A stretch of DNA of 64,000 nt from Allosaccharopolyspora coralli (GTDB lineage Bacteria; Actinomycetota; Actinomycetes; Mycobacteriales; Pseudonocardiaceae). The stretch is taken from assembly GCF_009664835.1 (NCBI RefSeq), contig NZ_CP045929.1, forward strand, positions 1,798,001-1,862,000, given 5' to 3'. The notes under the pieces are model-generated. The model ran no database searches. It saw nothing but the letters and a program-made list of their open reading frames with translations, and was not told the origin of the DNA. The translations under genes and the position numbers were made by a program. Numbering within the stretch: position 1 is the stretch's first letter; the number at the start of each line of letters is the position of its first letter. Positions 3,103 through 28,195 of this stretch are shown in pieces.

Positions 3103-3110
3103 GCTTTCGC

Positions 3111-3146
3111 GTGGGCGATACTGGGATCGAACCAGTGACCTCTTCG
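3111..3146 (-). repeat. Left att-like copy of tRNA-Val(CAC) 3' end
   Basis: 36 bases identical to 4382-4417, the T-arm and acceptor half of the intact tRNA-Val. The sequence stops matching the tRNA inside the anticodon arm (3147 onward), so this is a 3' half-tRNA only. Together with the duplicated terminator it marks the far end of an integrated element of about 1.27 kb. Confidence 0.8.
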
Positions 3147-4372: not shown

Positions 4373-4381
4373 TTGTGGTGT

Positions 4382-4417
4382 GTGGGCGATACTGGGATCG
4401 AACCAGTGACCTCTTCG
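4382..4417 (-). repeat. att-like core inside tRNA-Val(CAC)
   Basis: The 36 bases shared with 3111-3146. This copy lies in the intact tRNA gene, so the incoming element kept the tRNA whole by supplying a new 3' end. Confidence 0.75.
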
Positions 4418-4454
4418 GTGTGAACGAAGCGCTCTCCCCCTGAGCTAATCGCCC
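4383..4454 (-). tRNA. tRNA-Val(CAC)
   Basis: The minus strand folds as a full cloverleaf: acceptor GGGCGAT/ATCGCCC, D-arm AGCTCAGGGGGAGAGCG, anticodon stem CTTCG/CGAAG with loop TTCACAC (anticodon CAC), and T-arm ACTGG-TTCGATC-CCAGT. The CCA end is not encoded. Confidence 0.95.
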
Positions 4455-6508: not shown

Positions 6509-6583
6509 GCGCGATTAGCTCAGTGGGAGAGCGCTACCTTGACACGGTAGAGGTCACTGGTTCAATCCCAGTATCGCGCACCA
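6509..6583 (+). tRNA. tRNA-Val(GAC), host of the integrated element
   Basis: Acceptor GCGCGAT/ATCGCGC, anticodon arm CTACC-TTGACAC-GGTAG (anticodon GAC), T-arm ACTGG-TTCAATC-CCAGT, and an encoded CCA (6581-6583). Its 3' half from 6534 is the left att copy of the 21.6 kb element, so the element restored the tRNA with its own sequence. Confidence 0.95.
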
Positions 6584-6585
6584 GT
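6534..6585 (+). repeat. attL (3' half of tRNA-Val)
   Basis: 52 bases matching 28144-28195 at all but two positions. The differences are 6556 (A versus G) and 6572 (T versus C). These two bases pair with each other in the T-stem, so both copies keep a perfect stem. Confidence 0.9.
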
Positions 6586-6759: not shown

Positions 6760-7836
6760 TTATTTTCTAGGGCTGTGATCATGGTGTCGATCATCAGCTG
6801 GGGTGACGTGGGTGTAGATGCCGCGAACGCCGCTCATTTCGTGACCGAGACGATCGTGCTGGAGCACTTCGTGGATGCGGTCTTCGGAGAGCCAGCTCTT
6901 CTGGGTGTGGCGTAGTCCGTGGAAGTCCAACCCGGGCTGGAGGGGCCGCCACCCCCGGGAGGCTTGACCGGCGACGGCTGGGCGCCAGATTCGACGGTTG
7001 AAGTTCGATCGGCGGAGAAGGCCGTCTCGTGCGCCGGTGAAGACGTGGTCGTGGAACTGTGTGGTGGCGTGTTCGCGGAGCAGTTCGGCCAGAAACGGTG
7101 GCAGGTGGACCGTGCGGGCGCTGGCGGGGGTCTTGGGTGGTCCGAGTTCGAGGTGGCCTGCGGTCTCGTGGAGTGCTCCGACGTTCGGGTCTACGACGAT
7201 GGCGGCGTGTGGGGAGCGGTCGAGGTGGACGTTGCGCCATTGCAGTCCGGCTAGCTCGCCCCAGCGCAGGCCGGTGTACGCGGCAACGATGATCATCGTC
7301 CGGTAGGGGCCGCAGCGGTCGGCGATGGGCAGCAAGCGCGTCGGCGTGACGATCTCCCTGCGGTCAGATGGGGCGAGCTTGAGGCCGAGGCGACGGCAGG
7401 GGTTCTTGGTGATGAGGTCTTCCTCGGCGGCTTCGGCGAGGATCGTGGAGAAGAGCGAGATGATTCCGGCGACGGTCGCCTCTTTCAGGTCTCGGCGAAG
7501 CTTTTTGGACCACGTTTTTACCGTGATGCGCTTGATTGGCCCGATTTCGGTGGTGCCGAAGCGTGGTTCGATGTGGTTACGAATATAGGAGTCATACTTC
7601 GACCACGTGTTGCTGCTCACCTCGTGTGCCTCGCGCCAGATTTCGATCCATTCGTTGAGAGTGGTCTGTGCTTTTCGTGGGTCGGTGAAGGTGCCACGCT
7701 TGGATTCGTAATTGATGTCGTCGGCGCGGCTTCGCGCATCGGTGGGGTTGGTGTAGCCGCTGTCGGTTCCGATGGTTCCGTCTGGGCGCTGGTAGCGGAC
7801 GCGCCAGCCCGCGCCGTGTTGTTCGATCCAGGCCAT
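6760..7836 (-). CDS. Tyrosine site-specific integrase
   Basis: 358 residues. An N-terminal arm-binding/SAM-like half is followed by a catalytic domain with Arg I in AAYTGLRWGELAGLQW, the HxxR box in DFHGLRHTQKSWL, the conserved LGHEM, and the nucleophile Tyr in GIYTHVTPAD. All the catalytic residues of the family are visible, so it is probably active. I start at ATG 7836 (MAWIEQHGAGWRVRYQ), preceded by TTGGAGGA; the frame is open upstream to 8022, but that part overlaps the next gene and has no ribosome site. It sits about 180 bases inside attL, the usual place, and should catalyse integration into and excision from tRNA-Val(GAC). Confidence 0.95.
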   Translation of the reverse strand: MAWIEQHGAGWRVRYQRPDGTIGTDSGYTNPTDARSRADDINYESKRGTFTDPRKAQTTLNEWIEIWREAHEVSSNTWSKYDSYIRNHIEPRFGTTEIGPIKRITVKTWSKKLRRDLKEATVAGIISLFSTILAEAAEEDLITKNPCRRLGLKLAPSDRREIVTPTRLLPIADRCGPYRTMIIVAAYTGLRWGELAGLQWRNVHLDRSPHAAIVVDPNVGALHETAGHLELGPPKTPASARTVHLPPFLAELLREHATTQFHDHVFTGARDGLLRRSNFNRRIWRPAVAGQASRGWRPLQPGLDFHGLRHTQKSWLSEDRIHEVLQHDRLGHEMSGVRGIYTHVTPADDRHHDHSPRK

Positions 7837-7984
7837 TGGTATTCCTCCAACATGTGTGGGGTCCGCCCGGTCGATCCGGGCGGACCCCATTGACGCTCTA
7901 TATCGGCTAGAGCGGAACCGGTATGTTGTCATTGGCCGAAGAAACTTCGACCAATGCCGAATTGTTCGGTGATCCGGTTCTGAT

Positions 7985-8242
7985 TTATCTCCGCTGGCGG
8001 CTCGGGAACGATATGCGGGCAAGCTGGACTATGTCGCGCAGATCCTTCTCGGAGAAACGCAAATGCTTCCCGAGGAGAGTGCACGGAATCGCGCGGGCCC
8101 CCGCTTTGCGGCGGAGCCAGGACTCTTTGACCGCTAGCTTTTCGGCGGCTTCAGTAGGGGTATAGATTTCAGGTAAAGCTGTGTCGTCGACTGAATCAGG
8201 TTCTAGCCTGTTGTGGTCGAATCGGGTGTTCTTGCTTGCCAT
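7985..8242 (-). CDS. Excisionase-like helix-turn-helix protein
   Basis: 85 residues with EIYTPTEAAEKLAVKESWLRR (helix-turn-helix) and RAIPCTLLGKHLRFSEKDLR, the winged HTH typical of actinobacterial Xis-type and MerR-like small proteins. Such proteins bend DNA at att sites and direct the integrase to excision. It lies directly upstream of the integrase gene on the same strand with a gap of about 150 bases that may carry the integrase's own promoter. The start ATG at 8242 is preceded by GAGG. Confidence 0.8.
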   Translation of the reverse strand: MASKNTRFDHNRLEPDSVDDTALPEIYTPTEAAEKLAVKESWLRRKAGARAIPCTLLGKHLRFSEKDLRDIVQLARISFPSRQRR

Positions 8243-8308: not shown

Positions 8309-9193
8309 TCAGTCTTGATTCGGCGTTCGGAAAATAATGACGTCTTCGTGGGCGATGAGGTGTAGCGGGAGTCCGGTGTCGCGTTGTTTGCGGATGAAGT
8401 CGCGTTGGAAGAAGCTGCCGCGGGCGATGAGTTCGGTGTCGGTGGCTCGCGCGAGGAGTGCGACGCAGCGTTCGGTGGGGATGAGTCCGGCTTGTTGTCC
8501 GCAGGTGAGGATTTGGGTGGGCAGGTCGATGAGTTCGGAGTGTTCTCGCCAGGGCCGCAGGGTGATGGCGATGTGTCCGCCGGGTTTCAGGAATGCGCGT
8601 AGGGCGGTGAGGATGCGGGTGAATCCGGCGAGGAGTCGGTGGTGGCCGATGTTGGCGAGGTTGCCGCGGTCGAGGGTATTGCCGTAGCGGTGGTGGAACT
8701 TCTGGACGGTCTTGTTCGGTTTGGTGATGACTTGGCCGTGGACGGAGGGGCCGTAGGGCGGGCTGGTGACGGCGAGTGCGGCTTGGCCGGCGTACTCGAC
8801 CGGCAGCAACGTCCGGAGTTGGCGGGCGTCTCCGGAGTAGACCTCGCCGAGGTGGGGGACGCCGTCGTCGGCGGCGAGGGCAACGTTGTCGCGGGCGACT
8901 TGGACCCAGTGGGGTTCGTATTCGACTCCGAGGGCTCGGCGTCCGGCGTGGAGGGCTTCGACGAGGGTGGTGCCGATGCCGCACATCGGGTCGATCACGA
9001 GGTCGCCGGGTTGGGTGTAGTGGGCGATGGCGTGGGCGGCCACGGCCGGGAGCATCTTCGCGGGGTGGCTGGTCGATTCAGGGGTGTAGCGGTGTTGGCG
9101 TTGGGAGGCGGGCGCGGACTGGGCCGTGGCCCACACCGACACCCCCGAGGATGAAGTGCTGCAGGTGGTGTCGGGGTGCTGGGGTTCGGGCAT
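8309..9193 (-). CDS. DNA methyltransferase (N4-cytosine/N6-adenine type)
   Basis: 294 residues. Motif I (SAM binding) is DLVIDPMCGIGTTLVEAL at about residue 48-65, and the catalytic motif IV is AVTSPPYGPS. GVEYEPHWVQVARDN follows motif I, as in the MT-A70-unrelated N4/N6 'TSPPY' enzymes. It would methylate an exocyclic amino group in DNA; no specificity domain is obvious. The start at 9193 has AGGAAGG before it. No restriction enzyme is adjacent, so it may be an orphan methyltransferase protecting or marking the element. The next gene upstream (9238-10149) looks like a paralogue without the catalytic motifs; together they may act as a pair. Confidence 0.85.
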   Translation of the reverse strand: MPEPQHPDTTCSTSSSGVSVWATAQSAPASQRQHRYTPESTSHPAKMLPAVAAHAIAHYTQPGDLVIDPMCGIGTTLVEALHAGRRALGVEYEPHWVQVARDNVALAADDGVPHLGEVYSGDARQLRTLLPVEYAGQAALAVTSPPYGPSVHGQVITKPNKTVQKFHHRYGNTLDRGNLANIGHHRLLAGFTRILTALRAFLKPGGHIAITLRPWREHSELIDLPTQILTCGQQAGLIPTERCVALLARATDTELIARGSFFQRDFIRKQRDTGLPLHLIAHEDVIIFRTPNQD

Positions 9194-9237
9194 GGCGGGG
9201 GCCTTCCTGTCGTCGGGCTCGGCGCGTGGGTGCGGGG

Positions 9238-10149
9238 TCACGGGTGTGTGCCGTTCGCGTGGTCGGTGGGTTGGGCGAACACGAGCAGGTCGCAGTGGAT
9301 CCGCCGGTGCGGTGCCACCCACCTGGCCCGGGGTGCTGTGGCGGTGTCGGTCGAGGTGGGTTCCGGCGGGGTGAGGGGGTGGCGGTGCAGGGGTGTGTGG
9401 AGGACGACGAGGTGCTGGAGGTAGAGCAGGTCGGCGTTCTGCCCGGCCGCCACAATCGAGCCGGTCGGGTCGACCAGCACCCCGTCGTGTTGGTGACTGT
9501 GGGTGAGTACGGCGAGGGTGTCGCCGGTGCGGAGGCGGCGTGCTGCGTGCAGGGCGACGAGATCGGTCACCGCGTCCCCGGAAGCCCGGGGATCGAGGCT
9601 CGTGATGATCAGCTCAAGATCCGCATCGGACTCGTCGGTAGCCAGGTCGCGCCCCGCATCCGCGTGGTCTGGGGTGAGGGCGGTGTGGTGGGCGTCGGGG
9701 GTGATGAGCCCGTCCCAGAACGGCCGCGACACCGCTCCCGCCGAAGCCGGGCCGGGGTTGGGGGCTGGGTCGAAGATGGCGACGCGGCCGGTTCGGTCGA
9801 TCGCGGCCAGGGCGTCGTCGGCCTGCTCGTCGAGTTCGGGGGTGTGCTCGGCGGCGTTCGTGCGGGGCCAGGGCAGCAGGCCGACTCGGGCGCCGGGTTC
9901 GGTGAACGCGGTGGTGATCTGCCGGATGAGCGCGGGTGGCCAGGCCAGTGCCGGGTCGATGGGGGCGGTGGGTGCCCACACCGAGCTGGGGATCGCTGCG
10001 GCGGCCTTGCCGCGGGGGCTGTGTTCCCGGCGTCGCCGGGTGGCGGCGGGCCGGGCGTGGTGCGGGCGGGTGCGGTCCGGGGCGCCGGGGTACGGGCGGG
10101 GGTCGGAACCGCGCGGAGGCCGGTTGCCGGGGGTGTGGGGTCGAGGCAT
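9238..10149 (-). CDS. Probable catalytically inactive paralogue of the adjacent DNA methyltransferase
   Basis: 303 residues with a basic, disordered N-terminus (about 50 residues). From SVWAPTAP it can be laid alongside the neighbouring methyltransferase (SVWATAQ): AFTEPGARVGLLPWPRT sits where HYTQPGDLVIDPMCGIG does, LELIITSLDPRASG where ALAVTSPPYGPS does, GQNADLLYLQHLVVLHT where GQQAGLIPTERCVALLA does, and HCDLLVF where HEDVIIF does. The SAM motif and the TSPPY motif are both lost. A role as a DNA-binding or structural partner of the active enzyme is inference. The start ATG at 10149 has AAAGGG about ten bases before it; longer in-frame starts reach into the non-coding control region. The 44-base gap suggests co-transcription. 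Confidence 0.6.
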   Translation of the reverse strand: MPRPHTPGNRPPRGSDPRPYPGAPDRTRPHHARPAATRRRREHSPRGKAAAAIPSSVWAPTAPIDPALAWPPALIRQITTAFTEPGARVGLLPWPRTNAAEHTPELDEQADDALAAIDRTGRVAIFDPAPNPGPASAGAVSRPFWDGLITPDAHHTALTPDHADAGRDLATDESDADLELIITSLDPRASGDAVTDLVALHAARRLRTGDTLAVLTHSHQHDGVLVDPTGSIVAAGQNADLLYLQHLVVLHTPLHRHPLTPPEPTSTDTATAPRARWVAPHRRIHCDLLVFAQPTDHANGTHP

Positions 10150-10342
10150 CGCAGGAGCCCTTTCTCGGGTCGGGTGATTGCCTGGGTTGCTGTGGCACCC
10201 CTGAACTCCGAAGAAACGCCCCCGATGGAACACGGTCACGCCGACTTTTTGGTTTTTCTTCCGATGCCCCGCTTTGAGTGAGGACGGCCCGGATGCGTTG
10301 TGTCCTCCGGATGCCGGTGTCCGGGGGTTGGGCATGGGCAGG

Positions 10343-10380: not shown

Positions 10381-10537
10381 TGAGCCGCTCGTGCGCGAGC
10401 GTGCGAGATTCGGTAAGGCGCCCGCGCGGAACCAGTAATGTCACTAACAACGCAGCGCATGCCGAGTACCGACGATCACCGGTGATCCAGCGCGTCAGAG
10501 GGCTGAGGGAGCGCGGTGTGATCTTGATACCTGGTGC

Positions 10538-10603
10538 GGTACTTGATCGGTACTAGTTCGGTAGGAGGCCGGTACTAGTTTAGTGAGAGTTCGGTACCAC
10601 CTC
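10538..10603. repeat. 11-bp iteron array (GGTACTAGTTC-type)
   Basis: GGTACT or a close variant begins at 10538, 10549, 10560, 10571 and 10593, with a degenerate unit at 10582: an exact 11-base period over six units. The consensus is GGTACTAGTTC. A period close to one DNA turn places all copies on one face of the helix, as in iteron origins or arrays bound by a repressor or initiator. It lies just upstream of the sigma-like gene at 10655 and within the element's only long non-coding region (10150-10654). Confidence 0.7.
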
Positions 10604-10654: not shown

Positions 10655-11536
10655 ATGAACGGCGACCACGTTGATCCCAGTTCGGATTACTTCGAGACAG
10701 GCGCGCTCGATACCGCCCGCAGCGCATTCGGTTTCCTGGTGTCCGGGCCGTATCCGCTGTGCCTGGATGGCCGAATGTTTCCGGGGTTGCCGTCCCGGTG
10801 GTTGCGGCTGGATGAGGTACGGGAGGCGGTGCTGCACCGCCGCTGTCCGCAGCAGGTGCGTGATCGGGTGTGGGCGCACTTGGTGGTGCGGTCGCGGGCC
10901 GAGGGCGGGGCGTGGACGGTGGCGTGCGCCGGAGTCGCATTGCCCGCGCTGACCACGATCGCCGCGCGCTTGTCGGCCCGCTTCGCCGCCGACCCCGCGG
11001 ATCTGCATTCGGCGGTGCTGGCCGGGTTCCTCGCTGAGCTCGCGGAGATCGACCTGGACGCGCCGCGGATCATGAACCGCCTTCGCTGGGCCGCGTTCCG
11101 CGCCGGGCACGCGGCTCTGCGCGACGCCCTCGACACCCCGACGCCCGCCACCGGACGCCCCGCCCTCACCACTGGCCTGGCGGGTGCCGTCGAGGTGCAG
11201 AAGGGTCATCCGGACCTGGTACTGGCCCGCGCGGTCGCCGACGGTGCCCTCACTCCCGACGAGGCAGACTTGATCGCGGCCACCCGGCTCGACGGTCGCC
11301 CGTTGACCGAGCTGGCCGCCGAGCGTGCCCGTTCGTATCCGGCACTCAAACAGCAACGCCGCCGCGCCGAACACCGCCTCGCCGCTCACCTCAACCAGCC
11401 CCGTGACTACACCGCTCCCTGCATCGCCGAAACCGCCCAGCGGTCACACACGGTGACTTCGATTGAGGGTGGTTCGCCTTCGCTGACGCCATGCCCGCAG
11501 CCGCTGTGCGGACCGGCGTCGGGAGCCCAGGGATGA
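10655..11536 (+). CDS. Sigma-factor-like protein of integrative elements
   Basis: 293 residues. The central part (DLHSAVLAGFLAELAEIDLDAPRIMNRLRW) resembles sigma region 2, and the later part (LTPDEADLIAATRLDGRPLTELA, then RSYPALKQQRRRAEHRL) resembles region 4, a helix-turn-helix. Proteins of this kind accompany conjugation genes in actinobacterial elements. It may activate the element's transfer genes, or bind the nearby iterons; neither is shown. The ATG at 10655 is preceded by CAGGAGG; the longer frame to 10583 overlaps the iterons. Confidence 0.55.
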   Translation: MNGDHVDPSSDYFETGALDTARSAFGFLVSGPYPLCLDGRMFPGLPSRWLRLDEVREAVLHRRCPQQVRDRVWAHLVVRSRAEGGAWTVACAGVALPALTTIAARLSARFAADPADLHSAVLAGFLAELAEIDLDAPRIMNRLRWAAFRAGHAALRDALDTPTPATGRPALTTGLAGAVEVQKGHPDLVLARAVADGALTPDEADLIAATRLDGRPLTELAAERARSYPALKQQRRRAEHRLAAHLNQPRDYTAPCIAETAQRSHTVTSIEGGSPSLTPCPQPLCGPASGAQG

Positions 11537-11599: not shown

Positions 11600-12001
11600 A
11601 TGCCCAACACCACCTCGCTGCACCCCTCGCCCCGACGCCGTCGAGTCCGCTGTCGCCCTGCTCGCCTGGATGCCCGGAGGGGGCTGTTCCTGGTTGTCCT
11701 GGTGCTCTGCGGGGTGCTGGCGGTGTCATGTCCGGCTCAGGCGGAGACCACGCACGTGGTCGCGCTGGTGGGTTCGCTGGAGGAGGTGCTGAACAACATC
11801 CGGGCGTGGGTCATGGGCATTCTCGCGCTGGTCGCGACGGTGTTCCTCACGATCGGCGGGGTCCGGTACCTGTTGGCCAACGGTGATCCCGGTGAGGTGG
11901 AGAAGGCCAAGAGCGCCTTCCGCAACGCCGCCTTCGGGTACCTGCTGGCCGCGTTGGCGCCGGTGGTTGTGGACATCCTGCGCGGCCTGGTCGGAGCCTG
12001 A
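11600..12001 (+). CDS. TrbC/VirB2-like type IV secretion pilin
   Basis: 133 residues: a basic N-terminus, a long hydrophobic signal (LFLVVLVLCGVLAVSC, ending PAQA), then two membrane helices (WVMGILALVATVFLTIGGVRYL and FGYLLAALAPVVVDILRGL) joined by the short loop NGDPGEVEKAKSAFRNA. This is the layout of the actinobacterial TrbC/VirB2-type pilin subunit. GGAGGT lies 7 bases before the ATG. The stop overlaps the next start (TGATG at 12001), showing translational coupling. It is the main evidence that the element derives from a conjugative type IV system. Confidence 0.75.
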   Translation: MPNTTSLHPSPRRRRVRCRPARLDARRGLFLVVLVLCGVLAVSCPAQAETTHVVALVGSLEEVLNNIRAWVMGILALVATVFLTIGGVRYLLANGDPGEVEKAKSAFRNAAFGYLLAALAPVVVDILRGLVGA

Positions 12002-12402
12002 TGATGCGCGCTCCGACACCCTGCGCCGCCCGCCTGGCCCTCGTACTGCTGCTGATCGCACTCGGCTTCGTTGGCGGCCCCGTCGCCTCAGCGCAACCGC
12101 CCGTTCCCACGCCTGCCCAGGCGCCTGCGGATCCACCGGTACCGCTGCCACCGCGTCCCGATGCGTGTGGGCCGGGCACGGCGCTGCCGGTGTGCGAATT
12201 CCCGGCGCCACCGAGCAGGCCACCCCCGCCCCCGGAACCGACCACTCCAGAGCCGGTCGAGGCCGACCAGGAGTGCGGTTTCACCAACATTCCCGGTTGC
12301 GTTTCCGGTGCGATCGAAGCGTTTTTCAAGGATTTGGTCACCCCGGGGCTGAATGAGCTGCTGGGATTGTTGGCGGACTCGTTGCTGGCTCTTCCCAGAT
12401 GA
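12001..12402 (+). pseudogene. Secreted/membrane conjugation protein, 3' end cut off by ISL3 sequence
   Basis: The first about 128 residues are native: a signal peptide (LALVLLLIALGFVGGPVASA), a proline-rich stretch, a CGFTNIPGCVSGAIEAFFKD segment and LGLLADSLL. The frame then enters an ISL3 end at 12387 and stops five codons later. In related gene orders the gene after the pilin encodes a much longer TrbL/VirB6-like membrane protein beginning with this kind of region, so most of it is probably lost. The start overlaps the pilin's stop codon. Confidence 0.6.
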
Positions 12403-12567
12403 GGGTGTAGGTCGGCCGGGCGCGTCGGTCCGCAGATAGACGTCGAGGTCTCCCGACGATGGAGGTTCCTACGCCATCCATCCGAAAGACCTCGACGTGT
12501 CCGACGCTACCCCGCCGGCCGGGTTCGGCCGCCCTGACCTGACCGCCTTCGCGGCTCATCCCAATCG
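12387..12567. mobile_element. ISL3-type fragment: left end plus an inverted right tip
   Basis: 12387-12552 matches the left end of the ISL3 copy at 14860-15025 nearly base for base, including the transposase start. It then switches to GGCTCATCCCAATCG (12553-12567), the reverse complement of that copy's right tip. It is the scar of an insertion followed by deletion or recombination. From 12568 to 12780 I see no gene. Confidence 0.8.
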
Positions 12568-14859: not shown

Positions 14860-16297
14860 GGCTCTTCCCAGATGAGGGTGTAGGTCGGCCGGGCGCGTCG
14901 GTCCGCAGATAGACGTCGAGGTCTCCCGACGATGGAGGTTCCTACGCCATCCATCCGAAAGACCTCGACGTGTCCGACGCTACCCCGCCGGCCGGCTTCG
15001 GCCGCCCTGACCTGACCGCCTTCGCTCGACTCGACGGCCTCGGTCTGAGCGTGACCGGGCAACGACTTGAACCGGATCGTGCGGTCCTCGCGTGCCGCGT
15101 GGTGGAACCAGATCAGTGGTGCCGACGGTGCGGCAGCGAAGGCGCTGCTCGTGACACCGTGATCCGGCGGTTGGCCCACGAGCCGCTGGGCTGGCGACCG
15201 ACCGTGCTGGAAGTTGTAGTGCGCCGCTACCGCTGTGCCGACTGCGGACACGTGTGGCGCCAAGACACCAGCGCCGCGGCGGAGCCACGCGCGAAGCTCT
15301 CGCGCACCGGGTTGCGGTGGGCGCTGGAAGGGATCGTGGTCGCACACCTCACCGTCGCCCGTGTCGCCGAGGGACTCGGGGTCGCGTGGGACACCGCCAA
15401 CAACGCGGTCCTGGCCGAAGGCAATCGGCTGCTGATCAACGACCCCACGCGGTTCGAGGGCGTGAAGGTCATTGGCGTCGATGAGCACGTCTGGCGCCAC
15501 ACCAGGCGTGGCGACAAGTACGTCACCGTGATCATCGACCTCACCCCGGTCCGCGATGGCGCCGGCCCAGCAAGGCTGCTGGACATGGTCGAGGGCCGGT
15601 CGAAGGCGGCGTTCAAGACCTGGCTCGCCGACCGCGACGACGCCTTCCGTGACGCGGTCGAGGTGGTCGCGATGGACGGCTTCACCGGGTTCAAGACCGC
15701 CGCTGCGGAGGAGATCCCGGACGCGGTCACGGTGATGGATCCCTTCCACGTCGTGCGCCTGGCCGGTGACGCCCTCGACAGGTGCCGGCGCCGGGTCCAA
15801 CTCGCGATCCACGGGCACCGTGGGTTCAGGGACGACCCGCTCTACAAGTCGCGGCGCACGCTGCACACCGGCGCGGACCTGCTCACCGACAAGCAGAGCG
15901 ACAGGCTACGCGCGCTGTTCGTTGATGACGCTCACGTCGAGGTCGAGGCGACCTGGGGTGTCTACCAGCGCATGATCGCCGCCTATCGCCACGAGGACCG
16001 GCAACGTGGCCGCGAGCTCATGGAGAAGCTGATCACCGACCTCAGCGCCGGCGTCCCCAAGGTGCTCACCGAGCTCACCACCCTGGGGCGGACCTGAAGA
16101 AGCGAGCCGCCGACGTGCTCGCCTACTTCGAACGACCCGGCACCAGCAACGGGCCGACCGAGGCGCTCAACGGACGGCTCGAACACCTGCGCGGCTCCGC
16201 ACTCGGGTTCCGCAACCTGACCAACTACATCGCCCGAAGCCTGCTCGAGACCGGCGGCTTCAGACCCCAACTCCTACACCCCCGATTGGGATGAGCC
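14860..16297 (+). mobile_element. ISL3-family insertion sequence (1438 bp)
   Basis: Imperfect terminal inverted repeats of about 25 bases: left GGCTCTTCCCAGATGAGGG, right (reverse complement) GGCTCATCCCAATCGGGGG, both continuing TGTAGG. It encodes one ISL3-type transposase. The 8 bases on each side are not identical, so it is not a simple fresh insertion. The partial copy at 12387 shares its left end and orientation, so the two bracket the DJ-1/AraC and ABM genes. Confidence 0.85.
14970..16294 (+). pseudogene. ISL3 transposase, frameshifted near its 3' end
   Basis: GTG start. N-terminal zinc-ribbon (CRRCGSEG...YRCADCGHVW), HTH region, then the DDE catalytic domain with GVDEHVW and AMDGFTGF. 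The frame stops at 16095-16097 right after TTLGRT. The next frame, from 16094, continues with KKRAADVLAYFERPGTSNGP and LRGSALGFRNLTNYIARSL, the normal ISL3 C-terminus including the last catalytic Glu region. A single missing C (GGACCTGAAG for GGACCCTGAAG) explains the break. The product would lack about 66 residues and probably be inactive. Confidence 0.85.
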
Positions 16298-22882: not shown

Positions 22883-25563
22883 ATGTCCGAAGCAGCAGTC
22901 CCAGTGCCCTCCGGGATTCCGATCGTGCAGCCCGACGTGCGGGTGAGCGGCGCTCGCGAGCACAACCTGAAGGACGTGGACCTGACGGTGCCCCGCGACG
23001 CGACGGTGGTGTTCACCGGCGTGTCTGGGTCGGGTAAGTCCTCGCTGGCGTTCGGCACCCTGTACGCCGAGTCGCAGCGGCGCTACCTCGAGTCCGTCGC
23101 ACCCTACGCCCGCCGGCTGATCGACCAGGCCGGCGTCCCTGACGTCGACTCGATCACGGGCATGCCGCCGGCCGTGGCCCTGCAGCAGCAGCGGGGAGGG
23201 CGCACCGCCCGGTCCTCGGTGGGCAGCATCACCACGCTCTCGTCCCTTGTGCGCATGCTCTACTCGCGCGCTGGCGATTACCCGGACGACCAGCCGATGC
23301 TCTACGCCGAGGATTTCTCGGCCAACACCGTCCAGGGCGCGTGTCAGCGGTGCCACGGAATCGGGCAGGTGTACGAGGTCACCGAGCAGAAGATGGTGCC
23401 GGACCCCTCCCTCACCATCCGCGAACGGGCGATCGCCTCGTGGCCGACGGCCTGGCACGGTCACCAGCTGCGCGACGTCCTCGTCGCGCTCGGATACGAC
23501 GTCGACGTCCCCTGGCGGAAACTGCGCAAGAAAGACCGCGACTGGATCCTCTACACCGAGGAGACCCCCGTCGTCCCCGTCCATTCGACACTCACGCTCT
23601 CCGAGGCTCGCGCTGCGATCGAGGCGGGAGAGGAGTACAGCTACCAGGGCACGTTCGTGGGTGCGCGGCGCTACGTGCTCGACACCTTCGCCAACACCAA
23701 GAGCGCCTCGATGAAACGCCGCGTGGCCCAGTTCCTCGACGTGGCGCGCTGCCCGTCATGCCACGGCAAACGGCTGAAGCCCGAAGCCCTGACCGTGACC
23801 TTCGAGGGGCTCGACATCGCCGAGTTCTCGCAGTTGCCGATGCGGGAGCTGCTCTCACTGCTGGACGGGGTAGTCGCGGATACCGCCTCCGGCAATACGG
23901 GGACGGGCACTTCCGGCGAAGTCCTGGACGCGGCCTCGCGGCGCGAGGCCGTCGAGCAGAGAGTGGCGGCCGGCGGTTCCGCGCACTCGGCCGCCCCCGA
24001 TGTGCGCCGCACTCCGAACCAGTCGGCGGAGAAGCGGGCCGCGGCGGCGCGGGTGGGCGCTGAGCTTATCGACCGCCTGCGCCCGATCATCGACCTCGGC
24101 CTGGGCTACCTGTCCCTGCATCGGACCACACCCACTCTCTCCGGTGGCGAGCTTCAACGCCTGCGGCTGGCCACGCAGCTGACCTCGGAGCTGTTCGGTG
24201 TCGTCTACGTGCTCGACGAGCCTTCGGCGGGCCTGCACCCGCAGGACGTGACCGCATTGCTCGGGATCCTCGACGGACTCAAGGGCCGTGGAAACAGCCT
24301 TTTCGTGGTCGAGCACTCGGTGGAAGTGATGCGCCACGCCGACTGGCTGGTCGACATCGGGCCGGATGCGGGCGAGCGCGGCGGCCGCATCGTCTACAGC
24401 GGGCCGACCCAAGGCCTCGCCCAGGTCGAAGAATCCGTGACGCGGGGCTACCTCTTCGGCGGGAGCGGACTGCCTCCGCACGTCCCTCGTGACCCTGTCG
24501 GTTGGCTCGAGATGAAGGGTGTCACCCGCAACAACCTGCAGGACGTGTCCGTGTCGATCCCCATGGGCGTGCTCTCCGCCGTGACGGGTGTGTCCGGATC
24601 GGGCAAGTCCAGCCTGGTCAGCCAGGCGCTGCCCGCGCTGCTCAGCCAGTGCTTGGGGCGCACCGTGCCCGTCGACGAGGCTCCCGAGGACGACGAGCTG
24701 CTACTGGCGGATTCCCCCAACCGGCTCGAGGGCACCCTGACGGGAGACCTGACCGGCGTGCGCCGCGTCGTCAGCATTGACAGCCCATTGGCCGCACGCC
24801 GCGCTCGAACGTGGCCACCTACACAGGCCTGTTCGACCGTGTGCGCAGCCGCTTCGCGCAGACTCCCGAGGCGCGTGCCCGCGGCTACAAGCCCGGCCGG
24901 TTCTCCTTCAACGTCACTGGCGGCCGCTGCCCGACCTGCGAGGGTGAGGGGTCGGTGATGGTCGAGTTGCTCTTCTTGCCGTCGGTCTACACCGAGTGCC
25001 CGGACTGCCAAGGCACCCGCTACAAGGACAGCACACTGCACATCACCTGGCGCGACAAGAACATCGCCGAGATCCTCGCGATGAGCGTCGAGGAAGCTCA
25101 GGCGTTCTTTGCCGGCGAGGAGGAGATCATGCGGTCCCTTACGGCCCTGATCGACGTCGGGCTGGGCTACCTGCGGCTCGGGCAGCCCGCCACCGAGCTC
25201 TCCGGCGGGGAGGCGCAGCGCGTCAAGCTCGCCAGTGAGCTGCAGCGCGCCCAGCGCGGCGACACCCTCTACGTGCTCGACGAGCCGACCTCGGGCCTGC
25301 ATTGCGCCGACGCTGACCGCCTGGTCACGCATCTGCAGATCCTCGTAGCGGCGGGCAACACCGTTGTGATGGTAGAGCTGGACATGCGCGCCGTCGCCGC
25401 GGCCGACCACGTCATCGACCTCGGGCCAGGCGCGGGGGAGGACGGCGGCACCGTCGTCGCCTCTGGCAACCCGCAGGAGGTCGCCAAGGCAGGCGTTGGG
25501 GCGTCGGCGAAAGACCTCGGCCTTGCGCTGAAGGAGTCTGCGGCACTGGAGCGCTCCGCCTGA
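22883..25563 (+). pseudogene. UvrA-like ABC ATPase (UvrA2 type), broken by a frameshift
   Basis: Residues 1-635 or so give a normal UvrA N-terminal half: GVSGSGKSSLAFGTLYAESQ (Walker A), zinc CQRCHG and CPSCHG, LSGGELQRLRLATQLT, and YVLDEPSAGLHPQD, then the second Walker A GVSGSGKSSLVSQ. After VVSID, where UvrA proteins read QKPIGRTPRSN, the bases GACAGCCCATTGG show a loss of about 4 nt (24780-24785), and the frame shifts. The C-terminal half then continues from 24811 (NVATYTGLF, CPTCEGEG, LSGGEAQRVKLASEL, YVLDEPTSGLHC) to a normal end. The short length and missing UvrB-binding region suggest UvrA2, linked to drug or stress tolerance rather than core repair. Confidence 0.85.
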
Positions 25564-28143: not shown

Positions 28144-28195
28144 CTACCTTGACACGGTAGAGGTCGCTGGTTCAATCCCAGCATCGCGCACCAGT
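28144..28195 (+). repeat. attR: displaced original tRNA-Val 3' half
   Basis: 52 bases matching 6534-6585 with two differences. G28166 and C28182 replace A6556 and T6572 and pair with each other in the T-stem. There is no 5' half here. A terminator follows directly, so this is most likely the host's original tRNA 3' end. Confidence 0.9.

Follow-up and report, generated by a model that had tools for sequence, protein, structure and literature searches.

Pairs made up of an active and a dead methyltransferase are already known from RNA and DNA modification in eukaryotes, and tandem pairs of active enzymes from restriction systems. In METTL3-METTL14 and MTA1-MTA9 of the eukaryotic MT-A70 family, an active methyltransferase is joined to an inactive partner of the same family, as described in the accessible text of PMC8868631 and PMC13297926, the former of which gives the motif order of this family as IV then I. 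Two methyltransferase genes in one cluster, encoding two 5mC enzymes beside restriction genes, are described for M1/M2.LlaJI in the available part of PMC1459862. Orphan methyltransferases are reported to be enriched in plasmid leading regions and have been proposed to counter restriction; the accessible portion of PMC11541004 describes no dead partner for them. The T4SS-type integrative and conjugative elements (ICEs) of Actinobacteria encode an integrase and T4SS proteins, and the accessible sections of Ghinet et al. 2011 (PMC3218068) name methylases and methyltransferases singly only, one C5 DNA methylase among them. Our search of the open-access literature found no description of an active/inactive methyltransferase pair on conjugative elements, a silence that we regard as weak evidence of absence.

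The window analysed here, a stretch of 64,000 nucleotides of the Allosaccharopolyspora coralli genome, contains two adjacent genes on the minus strand, P (9238..10149; protein P0002, 303 aa) and M (8309..9193; protein P0001, 294 aa). Their open reading frames are 44 nt apart, and an alternative GTG start of P0001 has an offset of -3 from the end of the P0002 stop codon. The motifs of P0001 follow each other in the order X-I-IV (HPAKM, DPMCGIGTT at residues 68-76, and TSPPY within TSPPYG at residues 143-148), and no separate target-recognition domain was seen in it. The protein matches PF01555 (N6/N4 DNA methylase; 57.7 bits versus a cutoff of 26.7, with an alignment limited to profile positions 154-219 of 221) and PF01170 (UPF0020; 35.2 bits versus a cutoff of 22.3). 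Its best sequence matches are DNA methyltransferases, namely PF01555, phrog_67 and PDB 2zie (E 3e-17), and the value for Trm14 is 3e-8. TSPPY is present in all 16 rows of the alignment of methyltransferases from the pairs that we assign below to type 1. Judged by these motifs and matches, P0001 is an SPPY-type DNA methyltransferase, which most likely methylates an exocyclic amino group, either cytosine N4 or adenine N6. The product of P has neither the SAM motif nor the catalytic motif, as the preliminary description of this locus had stated, and gave no family match in Pfam, NCBIfam, PHROGs or PADLOC; its assignment as a degenerate paralogue of M is based on its fold model and on profiles.

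The P/M pair resembles the MT-A70 complexes in that an active and an inactive methyltransferase of one family are combined. It differs from them in being bacterial and located on conjugative elements, in having motif I (68-76) before motif IV (143-147), and in belonging to a family with both-intact and both-dead relatives. Gene pairing and gene fusion are the features that may suggest an obligate complex of the METTL3-METTL14 kind. The clustering of two methyltransferase genes is shared with LlaJI; the P/M pair, however, is of N4/N6 type, one of its copies is dead, and no restriction gene was recognised in Pfam, NCBIfam and PHROGs scans of the five to eight proteins around the pair.

All five landmarks by which the two proteins had been aligned by eye can be recognised, namely SVWA, TQPGD/TEPGA ahead of motif I, TSPPY versus ITSLDP, GQQA/GQNA, and EDVIIF/CDLLVF. 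The pairwise BLASTP comparison of P0001 and P0002 is not significant (E 0.11 over 54 residues). Comparison of 16 partners with 16 methyltransferases by hhalign gave 96.8% and E 2e-10 over about 100 columns, in the C-terminal half only. The methyltransferase encoded next door is matched by the partner profile in numerous separate genomes of the bacterial family (E about 1e-5 to 4e-11), and in degenerate pairs the match extends over most of the length (E down to 5e-14). Intermediate sequences are encoded by G163, a genome of another family of the same class. The first genes of its two pairs match, nearly in full length, the type-1 partner profile A1 with 88 and 69 bits and the type-1 methyltransferase profile A2 with 275 and 260 bits, and their products combine the partner-type YLQH signature with intact DPMCGIGTT/DPMAGIGTT and VSPPY. 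Letters of the YLQH type occur in 54 of 58 type-1 P proteins and in none of the 58 type-1 M proteins. The profile comparison, the profile matches on the neighbouring enzyme and the intermediate sequences support a common ancestry of P and M. In the tree, the type-2 families form one group each (100/99 and 100/100) and P and M are not two clean clades, the P proteins of L126/L127 being placed on the M side (87/87) and the first copies of G163 grouping with M (100/99). The branching of P and M is made uncertain by long branches.

AlphaFold2 models of the two proteins, built from 52 and 33 alignment rows, contain core elements in the same order. These are the SVWA strand, the strands of the Rossmann core, and a beta-hairpin that lies between strand 5 and the helix after it (E219-221/E224-226 for P0002, E215-217/E220-222 for P0001). 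The P0002 core is predicted with pLDDT above 90, and its N-terminal tail of about 50 residues with low confidence; the short helices 28-42, the strands 154-166 and the helix 261-272 of P0001 are absent from the P0002 model. Among SAM methyltransferases the best match of the P0002 model is TrmN (Z 12.3, 135 residues, 2.8 A), and Z is 8 or more for 692 of 1000 chains. Its Foldseek matches have low TM-scores (query-normalised 0.23-0.36 among the 50 matches listed), and one of the ten best is a Rossmann domain that is not a methyltransferase. The model predicts for P0002 a class I methyltransferase fold with Rossmann-like alternating alpha/beta architecture. Thus unrelated folds, named in the preliminary description as an outcome that would speak against a duplication, were not obtained, and the tandem duplication with decay of one copy that it had proposed is well supported by profiles, predicted fold, the extant both-intact intermediate and conserved gene order. 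Many N-terminal tails of type-1 partners, otherwise of low complexity, contain a conserved basic stretch of the RRPYPTAPTTTR-SPAKPG type, which is possibly a nucleic-acid contact.

Loci of this family were collected with a methyltransferase query from 60 genomes (19 of which gave matches) and with the partner profile from 130 genomes of the bacterial family (56 with matches) and 118 genomes of the class (9 with matches). These sets are samples, and loci gathered through the partner cannot show the frequency of solitary M. The collected loci contain 84 distinct pairs, including damaged ones with broken or partial genes (L020, L027, L097 and L101). The second start lies at offset -3 to the first stop in 29 of them, -7 in 17, -13 in one and 0 in four, 20 pairs have gaps and 13 are not assignable; the ends of the two genes overlap in 47 of the 84. 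From the methyltransferase side (60 genomes), the partner was found at 21 of 24 distinct places, the other three being two fragments (L021, L022) and a distant methyltransferase (L023). From the partner side, where six duplicate loci and two partial matches (the second place in G026, and G135:C4) are left out of the count, partner genes with no methyltransferase behind them are contig-end cases (L061/L064, L065) or a fragment (L101). An intact M with no P in front of it occurs in L098, and one with no P within the short stretch covered in L128. In L092, P and M are naturally fused in one protein of 639 residues. Hence the frequent occurrence of either gene alone, the other outcome named beforehand as contradicting the duplicated pair, was not observed, and the P and M genes appear to form a near-obligate operon. 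A search with P0002 of genome contigs and plasmids gave no match; with P0001, the search of plasmids gave a single record, in which the matching stretch has no annotated feature, and that of phages gave none.

The 84 pairs can be divided into 58 of type 1 and 26 of type 2, and three evolutionary states are represented among them. Both members have intact motifs in two pairs only, both of them in G163, which are also the only type-1 pairs (2/58) with SAM and catalytic motifs together in P. SPPY is present in the second protein of 56 of the 58 type-1 pairs, and in the second protein alone in 54, including the pair of the window. The two exceptions are L020, which is truncated, and L082, nearly full length, with another sequence in place of SPPY that looks like a separate loss. 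In type-2 pairs, one of which (L027) is split over two frames, (S/D/N)PP(Y/F/W) was found in neither member, with L101 too short to judge; in the P protein of L077, SPPH matched the loose pattern. A DPxCGxGT-like SAM motif is kept in 18 of the 26 type-2 M proteins. The type-2 proteins are recognisably of the same two families, since hhalign gives E 4e-50 for type-2 versus type-1 methyltransferases (A4-A2) and E 1e-21 for type-2 versus type-1 partners (A3-A1); type-2 partners versus type-1 methyltransferases (A3-A2) reach 52% only. Selection was examined in 12 comparisons, six of them of type 2, from which the near-identical L060/L062 had been excluded. The dN/dS values are 0.28-0.66 in P and 0.13-0.44 in M, with P the higher in ten comparisons, and amount to 0.19-0.58 in the six of type 2. 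The sampled pairs are under purifying selection, and because dN/dS is below 1 in all comparisons, neither form of the pair looks like a dying gene.

The genome from which the window comes carries both forms, type 1 in the window and type 2 in a second element, L113, at 2.73 Mb. In L113 (2728000-2747999), likewise a T4SS-type element, the both-degenerate pair adjoins a C5-cytosine methyltransferase gene. A motif scan found C5-cytosine DNA methyltransferase-like genes in the pair's stretch of L102, L105, L109, L119, L121, L113, L114 and L116, two of them confirmed by Pfam. Compensation of dead pairs by a neighbouring methyltransferase, which 5 of 6 long contexts seemed to indicate, was rejected on the wider set, where such a gene accompanies 8 of 20 type-2 and 13 of 34 type-1 pairs (30 pairs with too little downstream sequence being left out).

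In the window, the pair is located beside a gene of an excisionase-like HTH protein (7985..8242, minus strand; PF12728, with TIGR01764 at E 1e-5, just below its cutoff) and a tyrosine integrase gene (6760..7911, minus strand; PF00589, PF14659). An attL-like site at 6534..6585 (plus strand) comprises the 3' part of tRNA-Val(GAC) and the following bases. A 52-nt copy of this tRNA end, with two mismatches, recurs as an attR-like site at 28144..28195 (plus strand), and an integrated element of 21.6 kb is therefore suggested. On the other side of the pair lie, on the plus strand, a divergent gene conserved in this element family and encoding a putative regulator (10655..11536), a type IV secretion pilin gene (11600..12001; PF18895, E 6e-20), and the start of a gene named TrbL-like by eye (12001..12402), the scanned relative of which has no Pfam match. 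With integrase, attachment repeats and T4SS genes all present, the element has the composition of a T4SS-type ICE, like those surveyed by Ghinet et al., from which it differs in that the accessible sections of that survey name methyltransferases singly. A 166-nt direct repeat (12387-12552 and 14860-15025, 99% identical), which by eye has transposase-like ORFs beside it, cuts the TrbL-like gene with its first copy. As this gene is cut and no further transfer gene was noticed in the ORF list of the window, the copy in the window looks like a remnant, and its present mobility is doubtful.

Some other features of the window were noticed in passing. The Rfam scan found three tRNAs only. The 3' end of tRNA-Val(CAC) (3110-3132, 4381-4454) recurs 1.3 kb away with an ORF between that by eye resembles a C-terminal integrase fragment, and this may be the scar of another element. 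A UvrA/excinuclease-like protein, named by eye, is split over two overlapping frames at 22883-25563, a possible frameshift.

The association with transfer genes extends to the related loci. In all 21 contexts compared, namely the plasmid locus L005 and 20 stretches of 14.7-20 kb, the divergent gene and the T4SS pilin gene have homologues within about 5 kb of the pair, mostly adjoining it, and the representative L107 also has PrgI, Replic_Relax and an integrase. This position near transfer genes would fit, by analogy, the anti-restriction role proposed for methyltransferases of plasmid leading regions. Like them, M is a DNA methyltransferase of conjugative elements, and no restriction partner was recognised among the proteins scanned around it; it differs from them in being part of a near-obligate pair that also exists in a non-catalytic form.

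The region upstream of P contains a two-box promoter-like element, TGTTC-N17-CGGAGTT (10204..10232, minus strand), and a conserved leader (10190-10212). The leader, CGGAGTTnAGGGGTGTCA, is the second half of the two-box element, the general form of which is TGTYC-N17-CGGAGTT, and scores at least 15 of 19 upstream of P in 32 of 56 type-1 and 14 of 25 type-2 loci; the highest score in 50 shuffles is 11-15, depending on the locus. RNAalifold gave no conserved RNA structure in the leader. In 22 contexts, which include the window and of which L118 was not scorable, the two-box element with at most one mismatch was found at the pair in ten, at the pilin gene in seven and at both in six; it was not found upstream of the pilin gene of the window itself. 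This mismatch scan replaced a regular expression that gave only 13/46. A spacing of 17 between the boxes gave 25 matches versus 0-10 at any other spacing between 12 and 22. The two copies within an element are more alike than copies taken from different elements (a value as high arises in 35 of 5040 permutations, and outside the boxes in 140 of 5040), as judged from seven elements, two of them similar, with L120 left out as nearly the same as L114. Elements sharing copies of the two boxes may, as this sequence pattern suggests, express the pair and the transfer apparatus as one regulon. The divergent gene may be the regulator of this regulon; sub-threshold likeness to sigma-70 region 4 was detected in a few of 11 members of its family, the one in the window not among them.

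Between the pair and the divergent gene, four 11-bp iterons of the AACTAGTACCG type are present at 10537..10580 (minus strand), with a mean identity of 0.74 at period 11, compared with a mean of 0.49 and a maximum of 0.62 in 20 shuffles. Phased 11-bp iterons of element-specific sequence are also found in the control regions of L104, L105, L106, L119, L121 and L005. Iterons as a general rule were rejected: a period of 11 bp scores best in 14 of the 21 regions, that of the window among them (with three rounding ties), and only 7 of 21 regions exceed all 20 shuffles. The region of L113 does not exceed them all. The layout of iterons between the pair and the transfer operon resembles that of plasmid partition or replication sites, and the iterons or the promoter-like sequence might be bound by the pair.

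The explanation that we favour, with slightly better than even confidence, is a heteromeric DNA methyltransferase derived from a tandem duplication, which is expressed with the transfer genes and modifies the DNA of its own element; we infer here the formation of the complex, DNA as its substrate, the target site, the timing and the protective role. P and M would be the two halves of this enzyme, M binding SAM and catalysing the transfer. P, with the fold retained and the cofactor and catalytic motifs lost, would be an obligate subunit with a structural and probably a DNA-reading function, in a role roughly like that of METTL14 beside METTL3. The scaffold or DNA reader, the two-protein complex and the target in the control region proposed in the preliminary description would have their place in this scheme. 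The operon of the pair is part of the core conserved in a family of ICEs with type IV secretion, and it seems to be transcribed from a promoter type common to the transfer operon, so the pair would be made around transfer. Modification of the element's DNA at that time could shield it from host restriction or place a mark on its control region. Some lineages would then have lost catalysis and kept the pair. The pairs whose second copy, too, has lost the catalytic motif go beyond methylation as the purpose of the pair, and partly speak against it.

These type-2 pairs are the starting point of the strongest rival explanation, according to which the conserved job of the pair is DNA binding, as a regulator or organiser of transfer at the iteron/promoter region, with catalysis as an option and type 2 as the pure form. 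In 26 of 84 pairs (25 judgeable) SPPY is found in neither member; the six type-2 comparisons sampled have the dN/dS given above, the position of the pair is conserved, and the leader element is retained in 14 of 25. Since selection can keep the pair with its catalytic motif gone, a binding role beside catalysis is likely, and methylation cannot be the role in the pairs where M has no SPPY, i.e., those of type 2 and L082, in which SPPY looks lost a second time. The faster evolution of P in 10 of 12 comparisons, as might be expected of a reader of element-specific sites, and the differing sequences of the 11-bp iterons in several elements agree with this explanation. On the other hand, 56 of the 58 type-1 pairs retain the catalytic motif, so catalysis is selected there, the SAM-site motif DPxCGxGT is kept in 18 of 26 type-2 M proteins, and the iterons could just as well be served by the divergent gene. 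We hold DNA binding as the sole conserved job to be possible but rather doubtful. A stepwise conversion from two intact copies through one dead copy to a pair that lacks SPPY altogether, yet is still under selection at its place next to the transfer operon, in which the core role would be that of a non-catalytic SAM-sensing or DNA-reading complex organising or timing transfer and methylation would be dispensable, is entertained with the same tentativeness.

A modification of RNA by the pair, in the manner of Trm6/Trm61 or Trm11, is unlikely. Trm6/Trm61, the m1A58 tRNA methyltransferase, is a tetramer of an active and a dead paralogue, and Trm11, Trm14 and TrmN are tRNA m2G methyltransferases with a DPPY/NPPY motif and a THUMP domain. 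These three are near the top of the fold matches of both P0001 and P0002 and are the closest solved structures to the P0001 model among the Foldseek candidates (Z about 20), the likeness to the Trm6/Trm61 fold is represented by 2pwy (Z 18.1), and PF01170 is above its cutoff for M. However, the motif of M is TSPPY, no THUMP match was obtained for it, its best sequence matches are DNA methyltransferases, and the Pfam, NCBIfam and PHROGs scans reported no RNA-binding domain for the pair.

It is quite improbable that P is an inhibitor or chaperone of M instead of its DNA-reading subunit: the overlapping genes and their co-occurrence would fit any stoichiometric partner, but the both-intact pairs of G163, which of all pairs are arranged most like LlaJI, suggest an origin of P as an enzyme that worked alongside M. 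That P, having lost both motifs, is a decaying remnant with no function can hardly be believed of a protein that persists in 84 distinct pairs from several families, has dN/dS below 1 in all comparisons and is fused to M in L092.

The heteromeric DNA methyltransferase that we favour and the DNA-binding role considered beside it both concern a family in which three evolutionary states survive in related elements, and through this survival the question of why and when a dead enzyme copy is kept becomes directly testable. The P/M elements also allow a test, in laboratory strains, of the possible conversion of an entire enzyme pair into a device for binding DNA.
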